DNA of 64,000 nucleotides, taken from the NCBI RefSeq assembly GCF_002846495.1, contig NZ_PJNE01000001.1, positions 3,224,001 through 3,288,000 on the forward strand, written 5' to 3'. Under the pieces are notes generated by a model. It saw only the letters and a program-made list of their open reading frames with translations, was not told the DNA's origin and searched no databases. This DNA is from Phycicoccus duodecadis. GTDB taxonomy: Bacteria; Actinomycetota; Actinomycetes; Actinomycetales; Dermatophilaceae. Below, piece by piece: positions 20,488-31,053 of the stretch (position 1 is its first letter; the number at the start of each line of letters is the position of its first letter). The translations under genes were made by a program, and so were the position numbers.

Positions 20488-21018
20488 TCAGCCGCCGCGG
20501 ACCGCGGCGGCGACCTCGTCGAAGCGCTCGCGGGCCAGGACCGCCCCCTCGCGGCGCACGGCGGCGGGGTCGACCCGGATGACGCGGTTGACGCGCACCT
20601 CGCTCGGGCGCCCGCGCGAGTCCCACGGCCCGGAGCCGACCTCGACCCAGCGGCGCCCCGCGCGGCGCTCCTGCTCGGCGTCGCGGTCGTGGTCCTTGCT
20701 GGTCAGCTGCAGCGCCAGCAGCCAGGGGCCGTCGCGGCCGACGAGCAGCACCGGGCGGTCCTTGCCGCGGGTGTGGTCCTCCTCGTAGGGCACCCAGGTC
20801 CACACGATCTCGCCCGGGTCGGGGCGGCCGTCGGGGTGCGGGGCGTAGACGGGCTCGAGCGGCCCGGTCCAGTCGCCGGGGTAGTCGGCGCCGGCCGGCG
20901 GAGCGGTGGCGGTGTCGCGCGCCGTCCCTCCGCGGGGGCGGCCCTGCCGGCTCAGGGCGCGGCCGACCTCGCGCACGGCGGTCTCGACGAGGGGGCGCAG
21001 GACGCGCTGCCAGTTCAT
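20488..21018 (-). CDS. PemK/MazF-like protein with N-terminal extension
   Basis: 176 residues. The C-terminal ~110 residues match the PemK/MazF fold: [20 protein letters not shown] with [20 protein letters not shown], then [13 protein letters not shown]. MazF toxins cut mRNA at short motifs, but here an extra ~65 N-terminal residues precede the fold, and the usual GDI-W-V opening is changed to [12 protein letters not shown]. No antitoxin gene lies beside it. The same stand-alone gene beside lepA is common in actinobacteria, so a housekeeping or lost-toxin role is likely (inference). Divergent from lepA by 107 bp. Confidence 0.75.
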
Positions 21019-22982: not shown

Positions 22983-24208
22983 CGGCGGCCCCCACCACCG
23001 CCGTCATCGCCGACGCACCCCCGACCCGGAGCCTGCTCCAGGGGTCGGCCCTGCTCTGGGGCACCCAGTTCGCCTTCCTGAACCCCGCGATCGGGCTGCT
23101 CCTGGTCACCCTCTACGACGCCACGCCGGTCCAGGTGGGGCTGGCGCTGGCGGCCTACAACGCCAGCGGCCTGGTCTCGACGCTCGTCGTGCCCACCCGG
23201 GCCGACCGCTCGGGCGACTACCTCCGCCCGCTGATGTGGTGCGGGGCCTTCACCATCGCGCTCACCACGGCCCTGGCGCTGGCGACGACGCTCCCGCTCG
23301 CGGTGCTGGCCCTGGTGGCCCTCGGTGGCCCGGCCGGCGTCGGGATCGGGCTGATCTTCGCCTACCAGCGCTACACCGGCGCCACCTCCTCCCAGATCAT
23401 GCGGACGCGGGCGGTGGTCTCGTTCGCGTGGGTCGGCGGGCCGCCGCTCGCGGCCTTCCTGATGGGCTTCTTCGGCAGCCGCTCGATCCTCTGGGCGGTG
23501 GCGGGCATCGGGGTCGTCGGGCTGCTGCTGACCCGGGCCCTGGTGCGTGCGCACGCCCGCTCCGCGCACCCCTCGGCCGGAGCCCCGCGCGGCGACCGGA
23601 TGACCGTGGCCCTGCGCCGGCCCGACGTCGTGCTGCTCCTGGTCACGTTCGTGGCGCTCGGGGCGGCGGTCAGCGCCCAGGTCTCGGCGATGCCGCTGTT
23701 CGTCAGCCAGCGCCTCGGGCTCGGGGTCGAGTGGAGCGGGGTGGCCCTCGGCACCTGCGCGGCCCTCGAGATCCCGATCCTCATCGCGCTCGGCCGGCTC
23801 GTGGCCCGCTTCGGGCCGCGCCGCCTCGTGGCCATGGGCAGCGTGGCGGGTGTGTGCTACTACGGCCTGCTGACCGTGGTGCACGGCCCGGTGCTGCTGG
23901 TCGCCGCCCAGGTGCTGAACGCCCCCTTCATCGCCACCATGTCGGGGGTCGGGCTGACGCTGTTCCAGGACGTCATCGGACGCCCCGGCCTGGCGTCGGC
24001 GCTGTTCATGAACACCACCCGCGTCGGGGCCGTCGTGGCCGGGCCGGTGGTGGCGGTCGGCGGGATGACGAGCCTCGGCTACGCGGGCGTGTTCGCCGTG
24101 TGCGCGGGGCTGGTGGCCACCGGGCTCGCGGTGCTGGTGGGGGCCCGGCTCGGTCCGCTCAGCCGGCGGCCGGCGCGGCCAGTAGGTGGGCGTCGCCGCG
24201 CACCGTGA
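22979..24208 (+). CDS. MFS exporter of the sugar efflux (SET) type
   Basis: 409 residues, ~12 helices. The pattern [20 protein letters not shown], then [18 protein letters not shown] and [20 protein letters not shown], resembles SetA-like efflux carriers. GTG 22979 overlaps the lepA stop. The last 50 bp overlap the convergent ATPase gene; the tail residues ([19 protein letters not shown]) are low complexity. Substrate unknown; neighbouring iron genes on the other strand might hint at siderophore or metabolite export, but that is speculation. Confidence 0.82.
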
Positions 24209-25208
24209 CCGACACGGCCTCGCCCGCCACCGGCGGTGAAGTGCCGGTGAGGCGGGCCCGCAGGACCGGCGCCCCGTCACCGTCGAGGCGCAGCTCGACG
24301 AGGGCGTCATGACCGAAGTACTCCGTGCGCGTCACGACACCGTGCGCGGTGCCGGGGGCCACCGGGCCGAGGACCAGCTGCTCGGGGCGCAGCACGACCT
24401 CGCACGGCCCCGACCCCGAAGCGCCGGGGGCGGTGAGGCGGCCGAGGGCGCAGCGGACCGCGCCGTCCTCGAGGACCCCGGGCAGGAAGCATGCCTCACC
24501 GAGCGACACGGCCGAGCGGCGGTCGGACGGGGTGGTGTAGACCTCTGAGGGCGCGCCCACCTGCACCAGCCGGCCGCCGTGCATCACCGCCACCTGGTCG
24601 GCGAAGGACAGGGCCTCGGCGTGGTCGTGGGTGACCAGGACGACGGTGGCCTGCTCGTGGCGCAGCGCGGTGGCGACGGCGTCGCGGGTCGCGACGCGCA
24701 GCTCGGGGTCGAGGGCCGAGAAGGGCTCGTCGAGCAGCACGATGCGGGGGCGGCGGGCCAGCGAGCGGGCCAGCGCGACCCGCTGCTGCTGCCCGCCCGA
24801 GAGCTGGTCGGGGCGGCGGCGGCCGAGGTCGGCGGGCAGGCCCACGACCTCGAGCAGCTCGGCCACCCGGGCGTGCCCGCGGCGCTCGGCCCGCGGCAGG
24901 CCGTAGGAGATGTTCGCGGCGACGTCGAGGTGCGGGAAGAGGTTGCCCTCCTGCGCCACGTAGCCGAAGCCGCGGCGCTCGGGCGGCACCCAGGTGCCGG
25001 GGCCCGCCACGACCTCGTCGCCGAGCCGCACCGTGCCGGCGTCGGGGCGCATGAAGCCGGCGACGACCCGCAGCAGCGTCGTCTTGCCGCAGCCCGACGG
25101 GCCGAGCACGGCCGTGGTCGTGCCCGACGCGACGGTGAGGTCGATGTCGTGCAGCACCGGCGTCCGGGGGTGGGACGCGCTGATGCCCTCGAGCCGCAGG
25201 GTGGTCAT
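24159..25208 (-). CDS. ferric-type ABC importer ATPase (FbpC-like)
   Basis: 349 residues. Walker A GPSGCGKTT at 36-44, signature LSGGQQQRVALARSLARRP, Walker B IVLLDEPFSALDP and the H-loop VTHDHAEAL. A C-terminal TOBE-type regulatory region follows (LRPEQLVLG and GVVTRTEYFGHDALVELRL). This is the FbpC/PotA-like architecture of ferric ion importers. ATG 25208 overlaps the permease stop by 4 bp. With the permease and lipoprotein genes upstream it forms one operon, probably iron-regulated from the box at 27862-27880. Confidence 0.9.
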   Translation of the reverse strand: MTTLRLEGISASHPRTPVLHDIDLTVASGTTTAVLGPSGCGKTTLLRVVAGFMRPDAGTVRLGDEVVAGPGTWVPPERRGFGYVAQEGNLFPHLDVAANISYGLPRAERRGHARVAELLEVVGLPADLGRRRPDQLSGGQQQRVALARSLARRPRIVLLDEPFSALDPELRVATRDAVATALRHEQATVVLVTHDHAEALSFADQVAVMHGGRLVQVGAPSEVYTTPSDRRSAVSLGEACFLPGVLEDGAVRCALGRLTAPGASGSGPCEVVLRPEQLVLGPVAPGTAHGVVTRTEYFGHDALVELRLDGDGAPVLRARLTGTSPPVAGEAVSVTVRGDAHLLAAPAAG

Positions 25209-26791
25209 GGGCGGGGCTCCTCGTGGCCGCTGCGCAGCAGCAGCCAGGTCAGGGGGGCGGACAGGAGGACGAGCGCGGCCGCGAAGGGCGCCGCGGCGGC
25301 GTAGTCGAGGGAGGCGCTGGCGTCCCAGAACGCCGTGGCGAGGGTGCGGGTGCCGGTGGGCGCCAGCAGGAGGGTGGCGGTGAGCTCGGTGGTGACGGCG
25401 ATGAAGACCAGCGCCGTCCCCGCCAGGGTGCCGCGCAGCATCAACGGAGCCTGCACCCGCACGAAGGTGCGCAGCGGCCCGTCGCCCAGGGCCCGGGCGG
25501 CGTCGGCCAGCTCGGGGCGGACGGCGGCGATGGCGGCGCGGGTCGACACCATGGCGCGCGGGATGAAGAGCACGACGTAGGCCACGACCAGGGCCGCGGT
25601 GGTCTGGTAGAGCGGCCGCACGAAGCCGATGGTCAGCGTGATGAGCGCCAGGGCGACCACGACCCCCGGCAGGGACGCGGCCAGGTAGGTGACGCGCTCG
25701 AGCAGCAGCGCGACCCGAGACCGGCTGCGGGCCACCAGCCAGGCGGCCGGGAGGGTGGCGGCGGTGGTGAGCAGGGCGGCGCCGACACCGAGCGCCAGGG
25801 TGGAGCGCAGGGCCGGGCCGAGGGCGACCGGCTCGAGCGCCTGGTCGGCGCGCCCCAGCCACGTGCCGATGCTCCACAGCGGCACCCCGAGGGCCAGCAC
25901 GGCCAGCGCGACCAGGCCGAGCAGGGCCGGCAGGGTGGCGCGGCCGAGCGGGGCGCGGGGCGGGCGGCGGGACGCCCCGGAGCCGACGGCGACGTAGCGG
26001 GTGCGGCCCCGGGCCAGCACCTCGAGGGTGAGCAGCAGGGTGGCCAGCCCGATGAGCACCATCGCCAGCACGCTGCCCGAGCGGCTGTCGAAGGCGACCT
26101 CGAACTGGTCGAGGATCGCCGTCGTGAAGGTGGGGAAGCGCAGCATCTCGAGGGCACCGTACTCGGCCAGCAGGTGCAGCGACACGAGCAGGACCCCGCC
26201 CAGCAGCGCCGGGCGGACCTGCGCCAGGCCGACCCGGGCGAAGGTACGCCACGGCCCGTGCCCCAGCGCCCGTGAGGCCTCCTCGAGGCCGGGGTCGGTG
26301 GAGCGCAGCAGGGCCGCGACCGGGAGGAACACGAAGGGGAAGTACGACAGCGTGGTGACGATGACGGCGCCGGCCAGCCCCTCGAACCCGGGGACGAGCG
26401 AGGACCACGCGAAGCTGTTGACGAAGGCCGGCACGGCCAGCGGGGCCACGAACGCCACCCGCCACAGCCCGGCCCACGGCACCGCGGTGCGCTCGACCAA
26501 CCAGGCGGCACCGACCCCGAGCACGGTCGACAGCCCCCCGGTGAGGGCGACCAGCGAGAGGGTGTTGCGCATCAGCTCGCCGACCCGCGGGCGCCACACC
26601 AGCGAGAAGGCCTCGCCGGCACCGGACTCCAGCGCCTTGACCAGGACCACGACCAGCGGCATCAGGCACAGCAGCGCCACCACGACGGCCGCCGCCTGCA
26701 GGGCGCGCGGGCCGCGAGGGGCCCTCGTGGGCGCCGACGAGGGCGCCGTCCCGAGGGGGGCCGGCGCCGTCGTCGTCGGGGTCGCGGTCAC
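25205..26791 (-). CDS. ferric-type ABC permease, two fused halves (FbpB-like)
   Basis: 528 residues with ~12 helices. It contains two copies of the binding-protein-dependent permease EAA loop: EEASRALGHGPWRTFARVGL in the first half and ADAARALGDGPLRTFVRVQA in the second. Such internally duplicated permeases are typical of FbpB/ThiP ferric and thiamine importers. GTG 26791 immediately abuts the stop of the solute-binding protein gene. Confidence 0.92.
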   Translation of the reverse strand: MTATPTTTAPAPLGTAPSSAPTRAPRGPRALQAAAVVVALLCLMPLVVVLVKALESGAGEAFSLVWRPRVGELMRNTLSLVALTGGLSTVLGVGAAWLVERTAVPWAGLWRVAFVAPLAVPAFVNSFAWSSLVPGFEGLAGAVIVTTLSYFPFVFLPVAALLRSTDPGLEEASRALGHGPWRTFARVGLAQVRPALLGGVLLVSLHLLAEYGALEMLRFPTFTTAILDQFEVAFDSRSGSVLAMVLIGLATLLLTLEVLARGRTRYVAVGSGASRRPPRAPLGRATLPALLGLVALAVLALGVPLWSIGTWLGRADQALEPVALGPALRSTLALGVGAALLTTAATLPAAWLVARSRSRVALLLERVTYLAASLPGVVVALALITLTIGFVRPLYQTTAALVVAYVVLFIPRAMVSTRAAIAAVRPELADAARALGDGPLRTFVRVQAPLMLRGTLAGTALVFIAVTTELTATLLLAPTGTRTLATAFWDASASLDYAAAAPFAAALVLLSAPLTWLLLRSGHEEPRP

Positions 26792-27823
26792 CTAGAGCAG
26801 ACCCGCCTTGGTCATCAGGTCGATGACCTTGGGGCCGTTGAGGGTGAACGGGTCGATCTCGGGCGCCTCGAGCGAGTCCAGCGGAGGCAGGGCGGGGTCG
26901 GAGGCCGAGCCCCTGCCCACCGCGTACTCCTTGACGTCGGTGGTGCGCAGCATCTTCTGGCCCTGGGGGCCGGTGACGAACGCGAGGAACTTCTGGGCGT
27001 CGGCGGCGTGCTTGCTGCTCTTGAGGACCCCGCCCCCGCTGAGGCTGACGAAGGCGCCGGGGTCCTGGTTCTTGAAGTAGTGCAGCTTCGTGTTGCCGCT
27101 GCTGCTCTTCTGGAGGGCCTGGTCGCGGTACCAGTAGTAGTGGTAGATGACCCCCATCGCCGACTGCCCGGCGTTGACGGCCTTCATGGTCGCGATGTTG
27201 TTCTGGTAGACCTTCGCGTTCGACTTCAGGGCCCGTAGCCAGGCCTCGGTCCGCTGCTCGCCCTCCTGCGCCAGGACGGCCGAGACGATGGCCTGGAAGT
27301 CGGCGCCCCCGGCGGCCGCACCCCACTGGCCGGCGTACCTGGGGTCGGCGAGGTCCATCAGCGAGGCCGGGAGGTCGGCCTCCTTGATCTTGCCCGGGTT
27401 GTAGACCAGCACCGTCGCGCGCGCCGCGATGCCGACCCAGTCCTTCGACGAGGGCACGTACCGGGCCCCGACCTGGGCCACCGTGGCGGGGTCGACCGGC
27501 GCCAGCAGCCCGGCCTGCTCGACGGTGGTCATCGCGGGGGAGTTCTCGGTCAGGAAGACGTCGGCGGGGGAGCCCGCGCCCTCCTCGACGATCTGCGCGC
27601 CCATCGAGGAGTCGTTGCCGTAGCGGATCTGCACCTGGATGCCGGTCTCCTTCTGGAACTCCTCGCCCCAGGCCTGCGTGAGGTTCTTGTGCTGCGCGCT
27701 GTAGATCGTCAGCTTCGAGCCGTCGAGACTGCCGGTGGCCTCGAGGCTGCCGTCACCACAGGCGGAGAGCCCGAGGGTGGCGGCGGCCACCGCCGCGGCG
27801 ATCAGGGTGGTGCGTCGTCTCAC
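26792..27823 (-). CDS. ferric iron-type solute-binding lipoprotein (FbpA-like)
   Basis: 343 residues. Signal peptide with lipobox LSAC, so Cys22 is lipidated and the protein is anchored outside the membrane. The body is a FutA/FbpA-type extracellular binding protein: KLTIYSAQHKNLTQAWGEEF, ENSPAMTTVEQAGLL, and the tyrosine-rich YHYYWYRDQ region near where ferric-binding proteins place their Fe-coordinating tyrosines. GTG 27823 with GGAGAA 7-12 nt upstream. First gene of the importer operon, divergent from the ligase-carrier-AT3 fusion; the 143-bp gap carries two iron boxes. Confidence 0.92.
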   Translation of the reverse strand: MRRRTTLIAAAVAAATLGLSACGDGSLEATGSLDGSKLTIYSAQHKNLTQAWGEEFQKETGIQVQIRYGNDSSMGAQIVEEGAGSPADVFLTENSPAMTTVEQAGLLAPVDPATVAQVGARYVPSSKDWVGIAARATVLVYNPGKIKEADLPASLMDLADPRYAGQWGAAAGGADFQAIVSAVLAQEGEQRTEAWLRALKSNAKVYQNNIATMKAVNAGQSAMGVIYHYYWYRDQALQKSSSGNTKLHYFKNQDPGAFVSLSGGGVLKSSKHAADAQKFLAFVTGPQGQKMLRTTDVKEYAVGRGSASDPALPPLDSLEAPEIDPFTLNGPKVIDLMTKAGLL

Positions 27824-27858
27824 GAGGTTCTCCGGCTCCGGTCGGGGTCACAGGGCGA

Positions 27859-27887
27859 AGGGAAGGCTTGCCTAACTCCTGGGTCAA
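27859..27887 (-). promoter_or_regulatory. putative iron-regulated promoter of the importer operon
   Basis: Read on the minus strand: TTGACC (27887-27882), 17 bp, TTCCCT (27864-27859). The spacer contains AGTTAGGCAAGCCTT. The interval 27862-27880 matches the DtxR/IdeR consensus at 10-11 of 19 positions, centred on the same TTAGGC core as the stronger box 60 bp away. A repressor bound here would cover the -10 region. Confidence 0.45.
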
Positions 27888-27930: not shown

Positions 27931-27958
27931 TTGCATTAGGTGTGCCTAACCTTATTTA
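27931..27958 (+). promoter_or_regulatory. DtxR/IdeR iron box inside a putative leaderless promoter
   Basis: The 19-mer TTAGGTGTGCCTAACCTTA (27936-27954) matches the DtxR/IdeR consensus TTAGGTTAGGCTAACCTAA at 15 positions, 16 when read as its reverse complement. It sits between TTGCAT (27931-27936, -35-like) and TATTTA (27953-27958, -10-like). The expected transcription start falls at about 27965-27967, exactly at the GTG start, so the mRNA is probably leaderless. Fe2+-bound repressor would block this promoter, so expression is expected in iron starvation. Confidence 0.7.
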
Positions 27959-27966
27959 CTGCCTCC

Positions 27967-30648
27967 GTGACCGCGACCGTGGATGCCCCGCTGCGTGCCC
28001 CGGCCCTGCCGTGGGTGGCCCGGCTGACCGCTCACGGCGCACGCCCCGCCCTGCACACGCCGGCGGGCACCGTCACGCACGCCGAGCTGGCCGCACGGGT
28101 GGCCGCGGCGGCCGCGCGGCTGGCCGGCCCGCGCCGCCTCGTGCTGGTCGAGGGGTCGGGCACGCTCACGGGAGTGGTCTCGCTCCTGGCGGCCCAGGCC
28201 GCGGGCCACGTGGTGCTGCTGGTCCCGCCCGGGGCCTCGGCCGCCGCCCTGCGCGCCGCCTACCCGCCCGACGTCGTGGTGGGCGCCACCGGCGAGGTCG
28301 AGGTGCTGCGGGCGGAGCCCGCCCACGACCTCCATCCCGACCTCGCCCTGCTGCTGAGCACCAGCGGGTCCACCGGCGCGGCCAAGCTGGTGCGGCTCTC
28401 GGCGGCCAACCTGGTCGCCAACACCGAGCAGATCACCGAGGCCCTCGGGGTGCGCCCCGACGACTGTGCCGCGCTCACCCTGCCGCTGACCTACTGCTAC
28501 GGCCTGTCCGTCCTGACCACGCACCTGGCCGCGGGGGCCTCCCTGCTGCTCACCGACACCTCGGTGGTCGACGAGTGCTTCTGGCGGGCGGCGGCCGCCG
28601 CCGGGGTCACCACGCTGCCGGGTGTGCCGCACACCTTCGAGCTGCTCGAGCGCAGCGGGTTCGCCGAGCGCGACCTGCCCCGGCTGCGGACCCTCACCCA
28701 GGCCGGGGGCCGGATGGACCCCGAGCGGGTGCGCCGCTTCGCCGAGCTCGGCCGCCGGCGCGGGTTCGACCTCGTGGTGATGTACGGCCAGTGCGAGGCC
28801 ACGGCACGGATGACGGTGCTGCCGCCCGCGCTGGCCGCGTCCCACCCCGACACCGTGGGTCACCCCGTGCCCGGCGCCAGCATCGACCTCGACGACGGCG
28901 AGATCGTCTTCCGCGGCCCCAACGTGATGCTCGGTTACGCGCACAGCCCGGCCGACCTCGCGCTCGGGCGCACCGTCGAGGTGCTGCGCACCGGCGACCT
29001 GGGCGAGCGCACCCCCGAGGGGCTGCTGCGGGTCGTCGGTCGCCGGGCGCGCTTCGTCAAGGTGCTCGGCCACCGGGTCGACCTCGACTGCCTCGAGCAG
29101 CGGCTGCGCGACGGCGGGATGGACGCGCGCTGCGCCGGGCGTGACGGGCTGGTGGTCGTGGGGGCCCGTGGGGTGTGCGGGGTCGCGGAGGCCGAGCGGG
29201 TGCGCCGGGCAGCCTCGGTGCGCTCGGGCGTGCCGCGCGACGCGGTGCAGGTCGTGCCGGTCGAGGAGCTGCCGCTGCTCGAGAACGGCAAGCCCGACGC
29301 CGCCGCCCTGCTCGGCCTGGCCGAGTCCACCGACGGCCTCGCCGCCGGGGGCGACGCCGTCGGCGTGGCCGCGCTCTACGGCGACCTGCTCGGCGGCCCG
29401 GTGGGCCCGGGCGCCACCTTCGTCTCCCTGGGCGGCGACTCGCTGTCGTACGTCGAGGTGTCCATCCGGCTCGAGGAGCTGCTCGGGCGGCTGCCGACCG
29501 GGTGGCACCGGATGCCGGTGACCGAGCTCGAGGCGCTGCGCGACGACGCGCGGCGCCCCCGCCGTTGGGTGACCCTCGAGACCAGCATCTGGCTGCGGGC
29601 GCTGGCCATCGTGCTGGTCGTCGGCACCCACGCCCACCTGTTCACGATGCAGGGCACGGCCAACGCCCTGCTGGTCCTGGCCGGCTTCCAGCTGGCCCGG
29701 TTCCAGCTGGCGGGTACCGACCCGGTGCTCCGCTCGCGCCGGGTGCTGGGGGCGGCGGTGCGGGTCGCGGTGCCGAGCCTCGTCGTCATCGCGGTGGCGT
29801 ACTTCGTCGGCGGCTACTACGAGCCGCGCAACCTGCTGCTGGCCAACTGGGTGCTGGGCGAGGCGCGGCTGGGACCCCCCTGGCGGTTCTGGTTCGTCGA
29901 GGCACTGGTCTTCGCGCTCGTCGTGGTGGCCCTGCTGGCCCGCAGCCGGGTGGGCGCGCGGCTCGACGCGCGCTTCCCCTTCGCCCTGCCGCTGGCCCTC
30001 TGCGGGGCTGCGTTCGTCGCGTTCCGCATCCCCTGGGTCCCGCTCCCGGTGCCGCGGATGCAGGGCTCGGCCCTGGTCGTCCTGCACCTGTTCCTGCTCG
30101 GCTGGGCGCTGGCCCGAGCCCGCGGGCCGCGGCAGCGGCTGGTGGGCAGCGCGGTCGTGCTGCTCATGGTCGGCACCTTCTCGGGCAACCACCTGCGCGA
30201 CGGGCTCACCATCGCCGTCGTCCTGACGCTGCTGTGGCTGCCCACCTCGCGGGTCCCCGCCGTGGTGGTCCCGGTGGTGCGGGTGCTGGCGGCCGCGTCG
30301 CTCTACGTCTACGTCATCCACTGGCAGGCGCTCGAGCTGCTGTGGGGGCATCCGGCCGCGGCCTTCGCCGGCTCGCTCACCCTCGGCGTCGCCTACTGGT
30401 GGGTGTGGACCCGGTGGGTCACGCGCGCCGCCCGAGCGGTGACCGCCCGGTGGCGGGCTCAGAGGGGGACCGAGGACTCCTCGACGCGCGGGCCGCGCAG
30501 CGCGCCGCCGGCCCAGTCCTCCGGTCGCTCCACGAGGTCGAGCAGCGCGAGCACGTCGGCGGGCCAGATCTCGTCGGTGGTCCCGGCGAGCTCGGCCCGG
30601 GTCCACCAGCGCGTCTCGGCGATGCAGAGCCGCTCCTCCTCGGTGTAG
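27967..30648 (+). CDS. fused adenylating ligase - carrier domain - AT3 membrane acyltransferase
   Basis: 893 residues, three modules. (1) ANL adenylation domain, ~1-445: P-loop STSGSTGAAKLV near 130, YGQCEATARM, GDLGERTPEG, FVKVLGHRVDLDCLE and the A10 lysine in LLENGKPDAA. The amino acid-type FDxS motif is replaced by YGLS, so a non-amino carboxylic acid is the likelier substrate (inference). (2) Carrier domain with the phosphopantetheine site GGDSLSYVEV, Ser492. (3) Polytopic AT3-type acyltransferase from about residue 540, ~10 helices, opening with the family R-x10-H motif in LRALAIVLVVGTHAHLF. The predicted chain is: activate an acid, load the carrier, transfer at the membrane. GTG 27967 is chosen as leaderless start; the GTG at 27940 lies inside the iron box. 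The last ~62 residues run antisense through the NUDIX gene and look unnatural. Confidence 0.82.
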   Translation: MTATVDAPLRAPALPWVARLTAHGARPALHTPAGTVTHAELAARVAAAAARLAGPRRLVLVEGSGTLTGVVSLLAAQAAGHVVLLVPPGASAAALRAAYPPDVVVGATGEVEVLRAEPAHDLHPDLALLLSTSGSTGAAKLVRLSAANLVANTEQITEALGVRPDDCAALTLPLTYCYGLSVLTTHLAAGASLLLTDTSVVDECFWRAAAAAGVTTLPGVPHTFELLERSGFAERDLPRLRTLTQAGGRMDPERVRRFAELGRRRGFDLVVMYGQCEATARMTVLPPALAASHPDTVGHPVPGASIDLDDGEIVFRGPNVMLGYAHSPADLALGRTVEVLRTGDLGERTPEGLLRVVGRRARFVKVLGHRVDLDCLEQRLRDGGMDARCAGRDGLVVVGARGVCGVAEAERVRRAASVRSGVPRDAVQVVPVEELPLLENGKPDAAALLGLAESTDGLAAGGDAVGVAALYGDLLGGPVGPGATFVSLGGDSLSYVEVSIRLEELLGRLPTGWHRMPVTELEALRDDARRPRRWVTLETSIWLRALAIVLVVGTHAHLFTMQGTANALLVLAGFQLARFQLAGTDPVLRSRRVLGAAVRVAVPSLVVIAVAYFVGGYYEPRNLLLANWVLGEARLGPPWRFWFVEALVFALVVVALLARSRVGARLDARFPFALPLALCGAAFVAFRIPWVPLPVPRMQGSALVVLHLFLLGWALARARGPRQRLVGSAVVLLMVGTFSGNHLRDGLTIAVVLTLLWLPTSRVPAVVVPVVRVLAAASLYVYVIHWQALELLWGHPAAAFAGSLTLGVAYWWVWTRWVTRAARAVTARWRAQRGTEDSSTRGPRSAPPAQSSGRSTRSSSASTSAGQISSVVPASSARVHQRVSAMQSRSSSV

Positions 30649-31031
30649 CCCGAGCTGTCGACCTCGAACGGCGGTAGGCGCACCGCGAAGAACACCTCGG
30701 TCTGGTCGACGACCTTGTCGCTGTAGCCGTGCACCACCTGGCGCTCCAGCAGCGGCCCGCGCACGGCGGCGCGGTCGACGAGCTGCCCGGTCTCCTCGGC
30801 CAGCTCGCGCACCACGGCGTCGAGGTCGTCCTCGCCCGGGTCGACCCCGCCGCCGGGGGTGTCCCACCAGTGCGCGACCGGGTCCAGGCCCAGGTCGGAG
30901 TCGAGGAAGAGCAGCAGGCGGTCGTCCTCGTCGAGCACCAGGACCCGGACGGCGCGGCGGGCGAACCGCTGTCGGTCCTCGGGCGCCGGGACGACGAAGC
31001 CTGGCTGCCCGGGCAGGGGAGGGGTGGCCAT
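30459..31031 (-). CDS. NUDIX hydrolase
   Basis: 190 residues. The Nudix box is seen as GGGVDPGEDDLDAVVRELAEE followed by TG, with the catalytic REL-EE core intact, preceded by the strand LLLFLDSDLGLDPVAHWWDT. Such proteins hydrolyse nucleoside diphosphates linked to another moiety. ATG 31031 is preferred to GTG 6 bp upstream. The 3' 190 bp are overlapped by the opposite-strand AT3 fusion reading frame. Confidence 0.88.
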   Translation of the reverse strand: MATPPLPGQPGFVVPAPEDRQRFARRAVRVLVLDEDDRLLLFLDSDLGLDPVAHWWDTPGGGVDPGEDDLDAVVRELAEETGQLVDRAAVRGPLLERQVVHGYSDKVVDQTEVFFAVRLPPFEVDSSGYTEEERLCIAETRWWTRAELAGTTDEIWPADVLALLDLVERPEDWAGGALRGPRVEESSVPL

Positions 31032-31053
31032 GCCCACACGCTAGCCTCGCGAG

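Follow-up and report, generated by a model that had tools for sequence, protein, structure and literature searches.

A putative iron-repressed, self-charging transmembrane acyltransferase fusion encoded next to a ferric importer in Phycicoccus duodecadis

In the Dlt layout, an acid is adenylated by a ligase (DltA), passed to a carrier (DltC) and delivered to a membrane acyltransferase of the MBOAT type (DltB). Single-chain proteins in which adenylation and carrier domains precede membrane helices are represented by Pls and PosA, the products of which are poly-amino acids. The membrane acyltransferases of the TmAT type that are known act on glycans or lipids. The usual donor of AT3/TmAT enzymes is acyl-CoA (PMC9558356, PMC12423673), and the acyl-CoA site of TmAT holds its most conserved residues, including an Asp in TMH1, a Phe in TMH2 and the first Arg of an RxxR motif in TMH3 (PMC12423673). 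A further class of adenylating ligase is encoded in ACP-SDR-ligase-LuxE-LuxC operons, which have been described in the flagellin glycosylation islands of Aeromonas (PMC7874193). A search of open-licence PMC full text returned no paper on a fusion of adenylation, carrier and AT3 domains, which is not proof that none exists.

Such a fusion (A-T-AT3) is encoded by a single open reading frame of 893 codons (27967..30648, + strand) in the window, the 64,000-nucleotide stretch of P. duodecadis DNA analysed here. The translated product comprises an ANL adenylation domain (about residues 15-455; 28009..29331, + strand) with the A3, A5, A7, A8 and A10 core motifs, a carrier domain (about residues 465-530; 29359..29556, + strand) and a TmAT/AT3 membrane domain (about residues 534-835; 29566..30471, + strand) with an R-x10-H motif. 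Pfam scanning of the protein yielded an AMP-binding match (E 2.9e-38), a carrier-domain score below cut-off and an Acyl_transf_3 score of 21.5 bits, below the 31-bit gathering cut-off; Acyl_transf_3 is part of the precomputed annotation of many fusion homologues, and no NCBIfam family scored above cut-off among the best 25 matches listed. An alignment of 144 fusions was constructed (A3), incorporating 116 of 127 homologous proteins (P0003-P0129, with 11 fragments excluded) and 27 of 33 fusion loci (excluding L007, L023, L025, L028, L029 and L031). The A10 lysine (Lys442), the attachment serine in the carrier helix (Ser492, 29440-29442, + strand) and both residues of the R-x10-H motif (Arg544, 29596-29598, and His555, 29629-29631, + strand) are invariant in 144/144 sequences. 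The domain scans and this alignment establish that the three-part fusion noticed in the first-pass annotation is real and conserved. The possibility raised there, that the ligase and AT3 domains are a misjoined neighbour pair, is rejected because 116 database proteins and 27 loci of the alignment have the same domain order, and it fails also on the invariance of Ser492, Arg544 and His555. The fusion is probably functional up to about residue 835 (30471). A NUDIX gene (30459-31037, - strand) converges on it with an overlap of 190 bases at its 3′ end, such that the last ~57 residues of the fusion are encoded antisense to the NUDIX gene.

The spread of the fusion was assessed in a one-genome-per-species scan on the basis of the best 80 of 530 confirmed relatives, among which 33 loci (L007-L039) carry the fusion, complete or truncated. 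The hosts belong to the Dermatophilaceae/Intrasporangiaceae, Micrococcaceae, Microbacteriaceae, Nocardioidaceae, Streptomycetaceae, Micromonosporaceae, Pseudonocardiaceae and Acidimicrobiia, together with one Caulobacteraceae MAG. These loci and the window constitute the 34-locus set considered below, which includes one locus in which the contig ends after the adenylation domain (L031) and one in which it starts inside the gene (L029). A split form is present in Rhizobium sp. RM (L040:8868-11605), where an AT3 gene (E 5.5e-35) is followed 32 bases on by an adenylation-carrier gene. Adenylation-only relatives (L041-L059) occur in several phyla, including in Mycobacterium sp. and Amycolatopsis, alongside a small ACP-like gene, an SDR and LuxE/LuxC-like genes, and the nearest of them are located in ACP-SDR-ligase-LuxE-LuxC operons, as judged from a Pfam scan of one locus (L057).

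The adenylation pocket was read by way of an alignment with LgrA and is numbered here after PheA, with Arg281 (28807-28809, + strand) taken to correspond to position 331. At position 235, where α-amino-acid-activating NRPS domains have Asp, 138 of the 144 fusions have Cys, five have Ser and one has Thr, in agreement with the earlier observation that the amino-acid-binding motif is missing. Position 331 is Arg in 144/144. In the aligned adenylation-only relatives Arg281 is likewise retained, and Ser or Ala stands where the fusions have Cys. The replacement of Asp235 and the invariance of Arg281 argue against an α-amino acid; the loaded acid is probably a small one with an additional acidic or polar group, which would be held by Arg281.

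The membrane domain has the ten-helix TmAT fold, and a fold search with it returned HGSNAT at ranks 1-8. Along with the R-x10-H motif in TMH1, the Ser and His of TMH9 are present in 144/144 fusions, and the TmAT residues Gly573, Gly712, Ser778, Tyr782 and His785 are likewise retained throughout. Three acyl-CoA-linked features are absent from all 144 sequences, which are related, so that these losses do not represent independent events: the TMH1 Asp is replaced by Val or Ile in 141 and by Leu, Ala and Met once each, the TMH2 Phe by Leu in 144/144, and the first Arg of the TMH3 RxxR by Ala, Ser or Gly in 144/144. In these alignment columns the fusions lack both the RxxR and the Phe of canonical acyl-CoA-using AT3 enzymes, whereas AT3-only controls (11 genomes, same family; 28 of 31 fetched loci, excluding L090, L111 and L118) have the TMH2 Phe in 27/28 and the RxxR in 26/28 sequences. 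A looser pattern count finds RxxR-P in four to five of the 144 fusions, with at least four of those rows anchored too early. Arg595, which adjoins the lost RxxR Arg, is present in 71/144 fusions and might substitute for it. The split AT3 of Rhizobium, as read by eye, retains the TMH2 Phe and has Lys at the first RxxR Arg position, and the loss of CoA contacts is therefore not uniform among carrier-paired AT3s. The retention of the catalytic residues and the loss of the three acyl-CoA-linked features are compatible with an acyl group offered by the attached carrier, and from these alignments we infer that the phosphopantetheine arm of this carrier may be the acyl donor. With respect to priming of the carrier, AcpS was found in the genome of the window, while a search for Sfp-type enzymes and 4PPT_N matches in the same genome found none, a result that counts against the proposed self-charging.

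The fusion is flanked by divergently oriented genes for a putative ferric importer, namely an fbpA-like ferric-iron-binding protein (26792..27823, - strand), an fbpB-like permease with two BPD_transp_1 stretches (25205..26791, - strand) and an fbpC-like ATPase with a TOBE domain (24159..25208, - strand; start Met chosen by hand). As no NCBIfam family scored above cut-off for the three genes (best 25 matches listed for the ATPase), the identity of FbpA rests on a search of solved structures, in which SfuA, YfuA and HitA are nearest. All three FbpABC genes adjoin the fusion in 19 of the 34 loci (tblastn; loci from the best 80 of 530 relatives), and the importer previously noted beside the fusion is accordingly a real and recurrent neighbour. 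The arrangement is divergent in nine of the 19 loci, co-directional in nine, with the fusion downstream of the ABC genes, and convergent in one, with 12-420 bases between matches. FbpABC is not adjacent in 15/34 loci from the same best 80 relatives, and linkage is patchy, requiring at least seven changes on a 30-row tree (the window and 29 of 33 loci) compared with a mean of 10.0 in shuffles, of which 25/500 were as low. Beside the adenylation-only relatives, tblastn detected FbpABC in 0/20 loci and no FbpA match. Elsewhere in the window, a PemK/MazF-like toxin gene (20488-21018, - strand) adjoins lepA.

Two DtxR/IdeR-like iron boxes are located between fbpA and the fusion, where shuffles expect 0.00. 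One adjoins the fusion start (27936..27954, + strand) and has two mismatches to TWAGGTWAGSCTWACCTWA, while the other adjoins fbpA (27857..27875, - strand) and has three. These are the only two sites with ≤3 mismatches in the 3.5 Mb genome, a reversed-pattern control giving 0, and the genome encodes one DtxR-family repressor, so that a promoter iron box and a cognate repressor gene, the components of a DtxR/IdeR regulon, are both present. With a limit of five mismatches, fixed after a first look at the data, a box is found 5′ of the fusion or of fbpA in 28/34 loci (from the best 80 of 530 relatives). Across the 34 loci there are 36 sites in 18,326 nt of upstream DNA, overlapping matches in L015 and L034 being counted singly, versus 0 in 653,299 nt elsewhere. 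When the fusion upstreams are shuffled, a box turns up in 0.02 loci, and these controls and the whole-genome scan rule out chance boxes. The low-iron control that had been suggested from the window is thus borne out by predicted sites in the genome and in the majority of these loci. A box is present in 18/19 FbpABC-linked loci; in those with the fusion trailing the ABC genes in the same orientation, it often occurs only 5′ of fbpA (L014, L022, L024, L026, L028 and L031). It is also present in 10/15 loci without adjacent FbpABC, which argues that iron control follows the fusion itself. No box with ≤5 mismatches was found in six of the 34 loci, comprising three Acidimicrobiia, L025, L033 and L029, the contig of which starts inside the gene. 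Upstream of the adenylation-only relatives there are 0 boxes in 20/20 loci, with three sites elsewhere.

No gene in the scanned neighbourhoods names the acceptor, and in scanned loci without FbpABC the other neighbours of the fusion are unrelated. The Caulobacteraceae fusion (L033:2283-8765) has an exosortase and a polysaccharide flippase encoded nearby, and its contig shows no FbpABC match. The closest adenylation-only relatives are located in loci for surface sugars, of a described operon type (PMC7874193). These surroundings of L033, together with the action of AT3 enzymes on surface glycans (PMC9558356, PMC9833829), suggest an envelope glycan or lipid as a first guess for the acceptor.

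We propose, with a probability of about 60%, that the fusion is a self-charging transmembrane acyltransferase, repressed by iron, with an extracytoplasmic product that aids FbpABC. The adenylation domain would activate a small non-α-amino acid, with Arg281 probably holding its second acidic or polar group, and load it onto the phosphopantetheine arm of the carrier in the same chain. Instead of soluble acyl-CoA, the loaded arm would then enter the TmAT domain at its cytoplasmic mouth, and the acyl group would cross the membrane to reach an acceptor outside the cytoplasm, most likely an envelope glycan or lipid. In iron plenty a DtxR/IdeR-type repressor would shut off both the fusion and fbpABC, and this joint repression suggests that the product most likely helps Fe(III) to reach FbpA. 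The sequence comparisons give good support to the predicted iron control and the self-loading architecture; the donor acid, acceptor and product we infer. A bolder reading, to which we give a low probability, is a siderophore-free iron trap, in which the acyl group added to the envelope at low iron would bind metal (it could be a hydroxy- or dicarboxylic acid that Arg281 grips while it is loaded), and Fe(III) caught at the surface would be passed to FbpA.

The iron boxes and the ferric importer alongside, combined with NRPS-like adenylation and carrier domains, would also suit the synthesis or tailoring of a small released iron binder, such as a siderophore or an acyl-polyol, with the TmAT domain coupling acylation to export. 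This appears unlikely, as the known TmAT enzymes modify glycans or lipids, no siderophore biosynthesis family is present among the scanned neighbours and the partner importer is of the FbpA type, not one with a siderophore-type binding protein. Alteration of the envelope for defence or charge control, with low iron as a cue for competition or stress and FbpABC as a regulon neighbour instead of a partner, is a rather poor fit to the persistence of FbpABC adjacency in divergent, co-directional and convergent layouts and to the nine loci in which the fusion comes after the ABC genes in the same orientation, even though envelope protection is a common role of AT3 and Dlt-type enzymes (PMC9558356) and FbpABC is not adjacent in 15 of the 34 loci (from the best 80 of 530 relatives).

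An AT3 domain that is still dependent on acyl-CoA, with the adenylation-carrier half serving another enzyme or a regulatory role, seems very improbable. Arg599 (137/144) and Arg578 (144/144) could bind the CoA phosphates; however, the three CoA-linked features are gone, the domain order is fixed in one chain and no other carrier-using enzyme recurs among the neighbours.

If the carrier-fed AT3 proposed here is correct, the donor rule would change for a large family thought to take acyl-CoA, a one-gene system would become available for studying activation, loading and transmembrane transfer together, and the iron responses of Actinomycetota would gain an unrecognised iron-repressed modification of the envelope or of a metabolite. 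The iron trap, if true, would represent a tethered, self-loaded counterpart to siderophore uptake, and its enzyme would be the first AT3 to receive the acyl group from its own carrier rather than from acyl-CoA.

Among described systems, the DmdR1/IdeR regulon of Streptomyces coelicolor features the same type of iron box and repressor, and section 3 of PMC12161575, where this regulon is described, names no A-T-AT3 protein. The ligase of the flagellin-glycosylation operons is the nearest adenylation-only relative and has pocket residues around Y176-S181, T244-A246 and R281 in common with the fusion; these operons differ in their separate ACP, in the absence of an AT3 from the scanned L057 operon and in the lack of an upstream iron box in 20/20 loci. 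Unlike Pls and PosA, the fusion has a TmAT domain as its membrane part and lacks the amino-acid Asp. The Dlt system follows the same logic of activation, carrier and membrane transfer, and DltA is found at rank 45 among the structural matches; the fusion, however, is one chain instead of separate MBOAT transferase and D-alanine ligase genes, has a TmAT in place of an MBOAT domain, lacks the amino-acid Asp and is preceded by iron boxes. With the AT3/TmAT enzymes OafB, OatA and HGSNAT the fusion shares the ten-helix fold, R-x10-H, the TMH2 and TMH6 Gly and the TMH9 Ser/Tyr/His, but it has lost the TMH1 Asp, the TMH2 Phe and the first Arg in TMH3 and has adenylation and carrier domains in addition.
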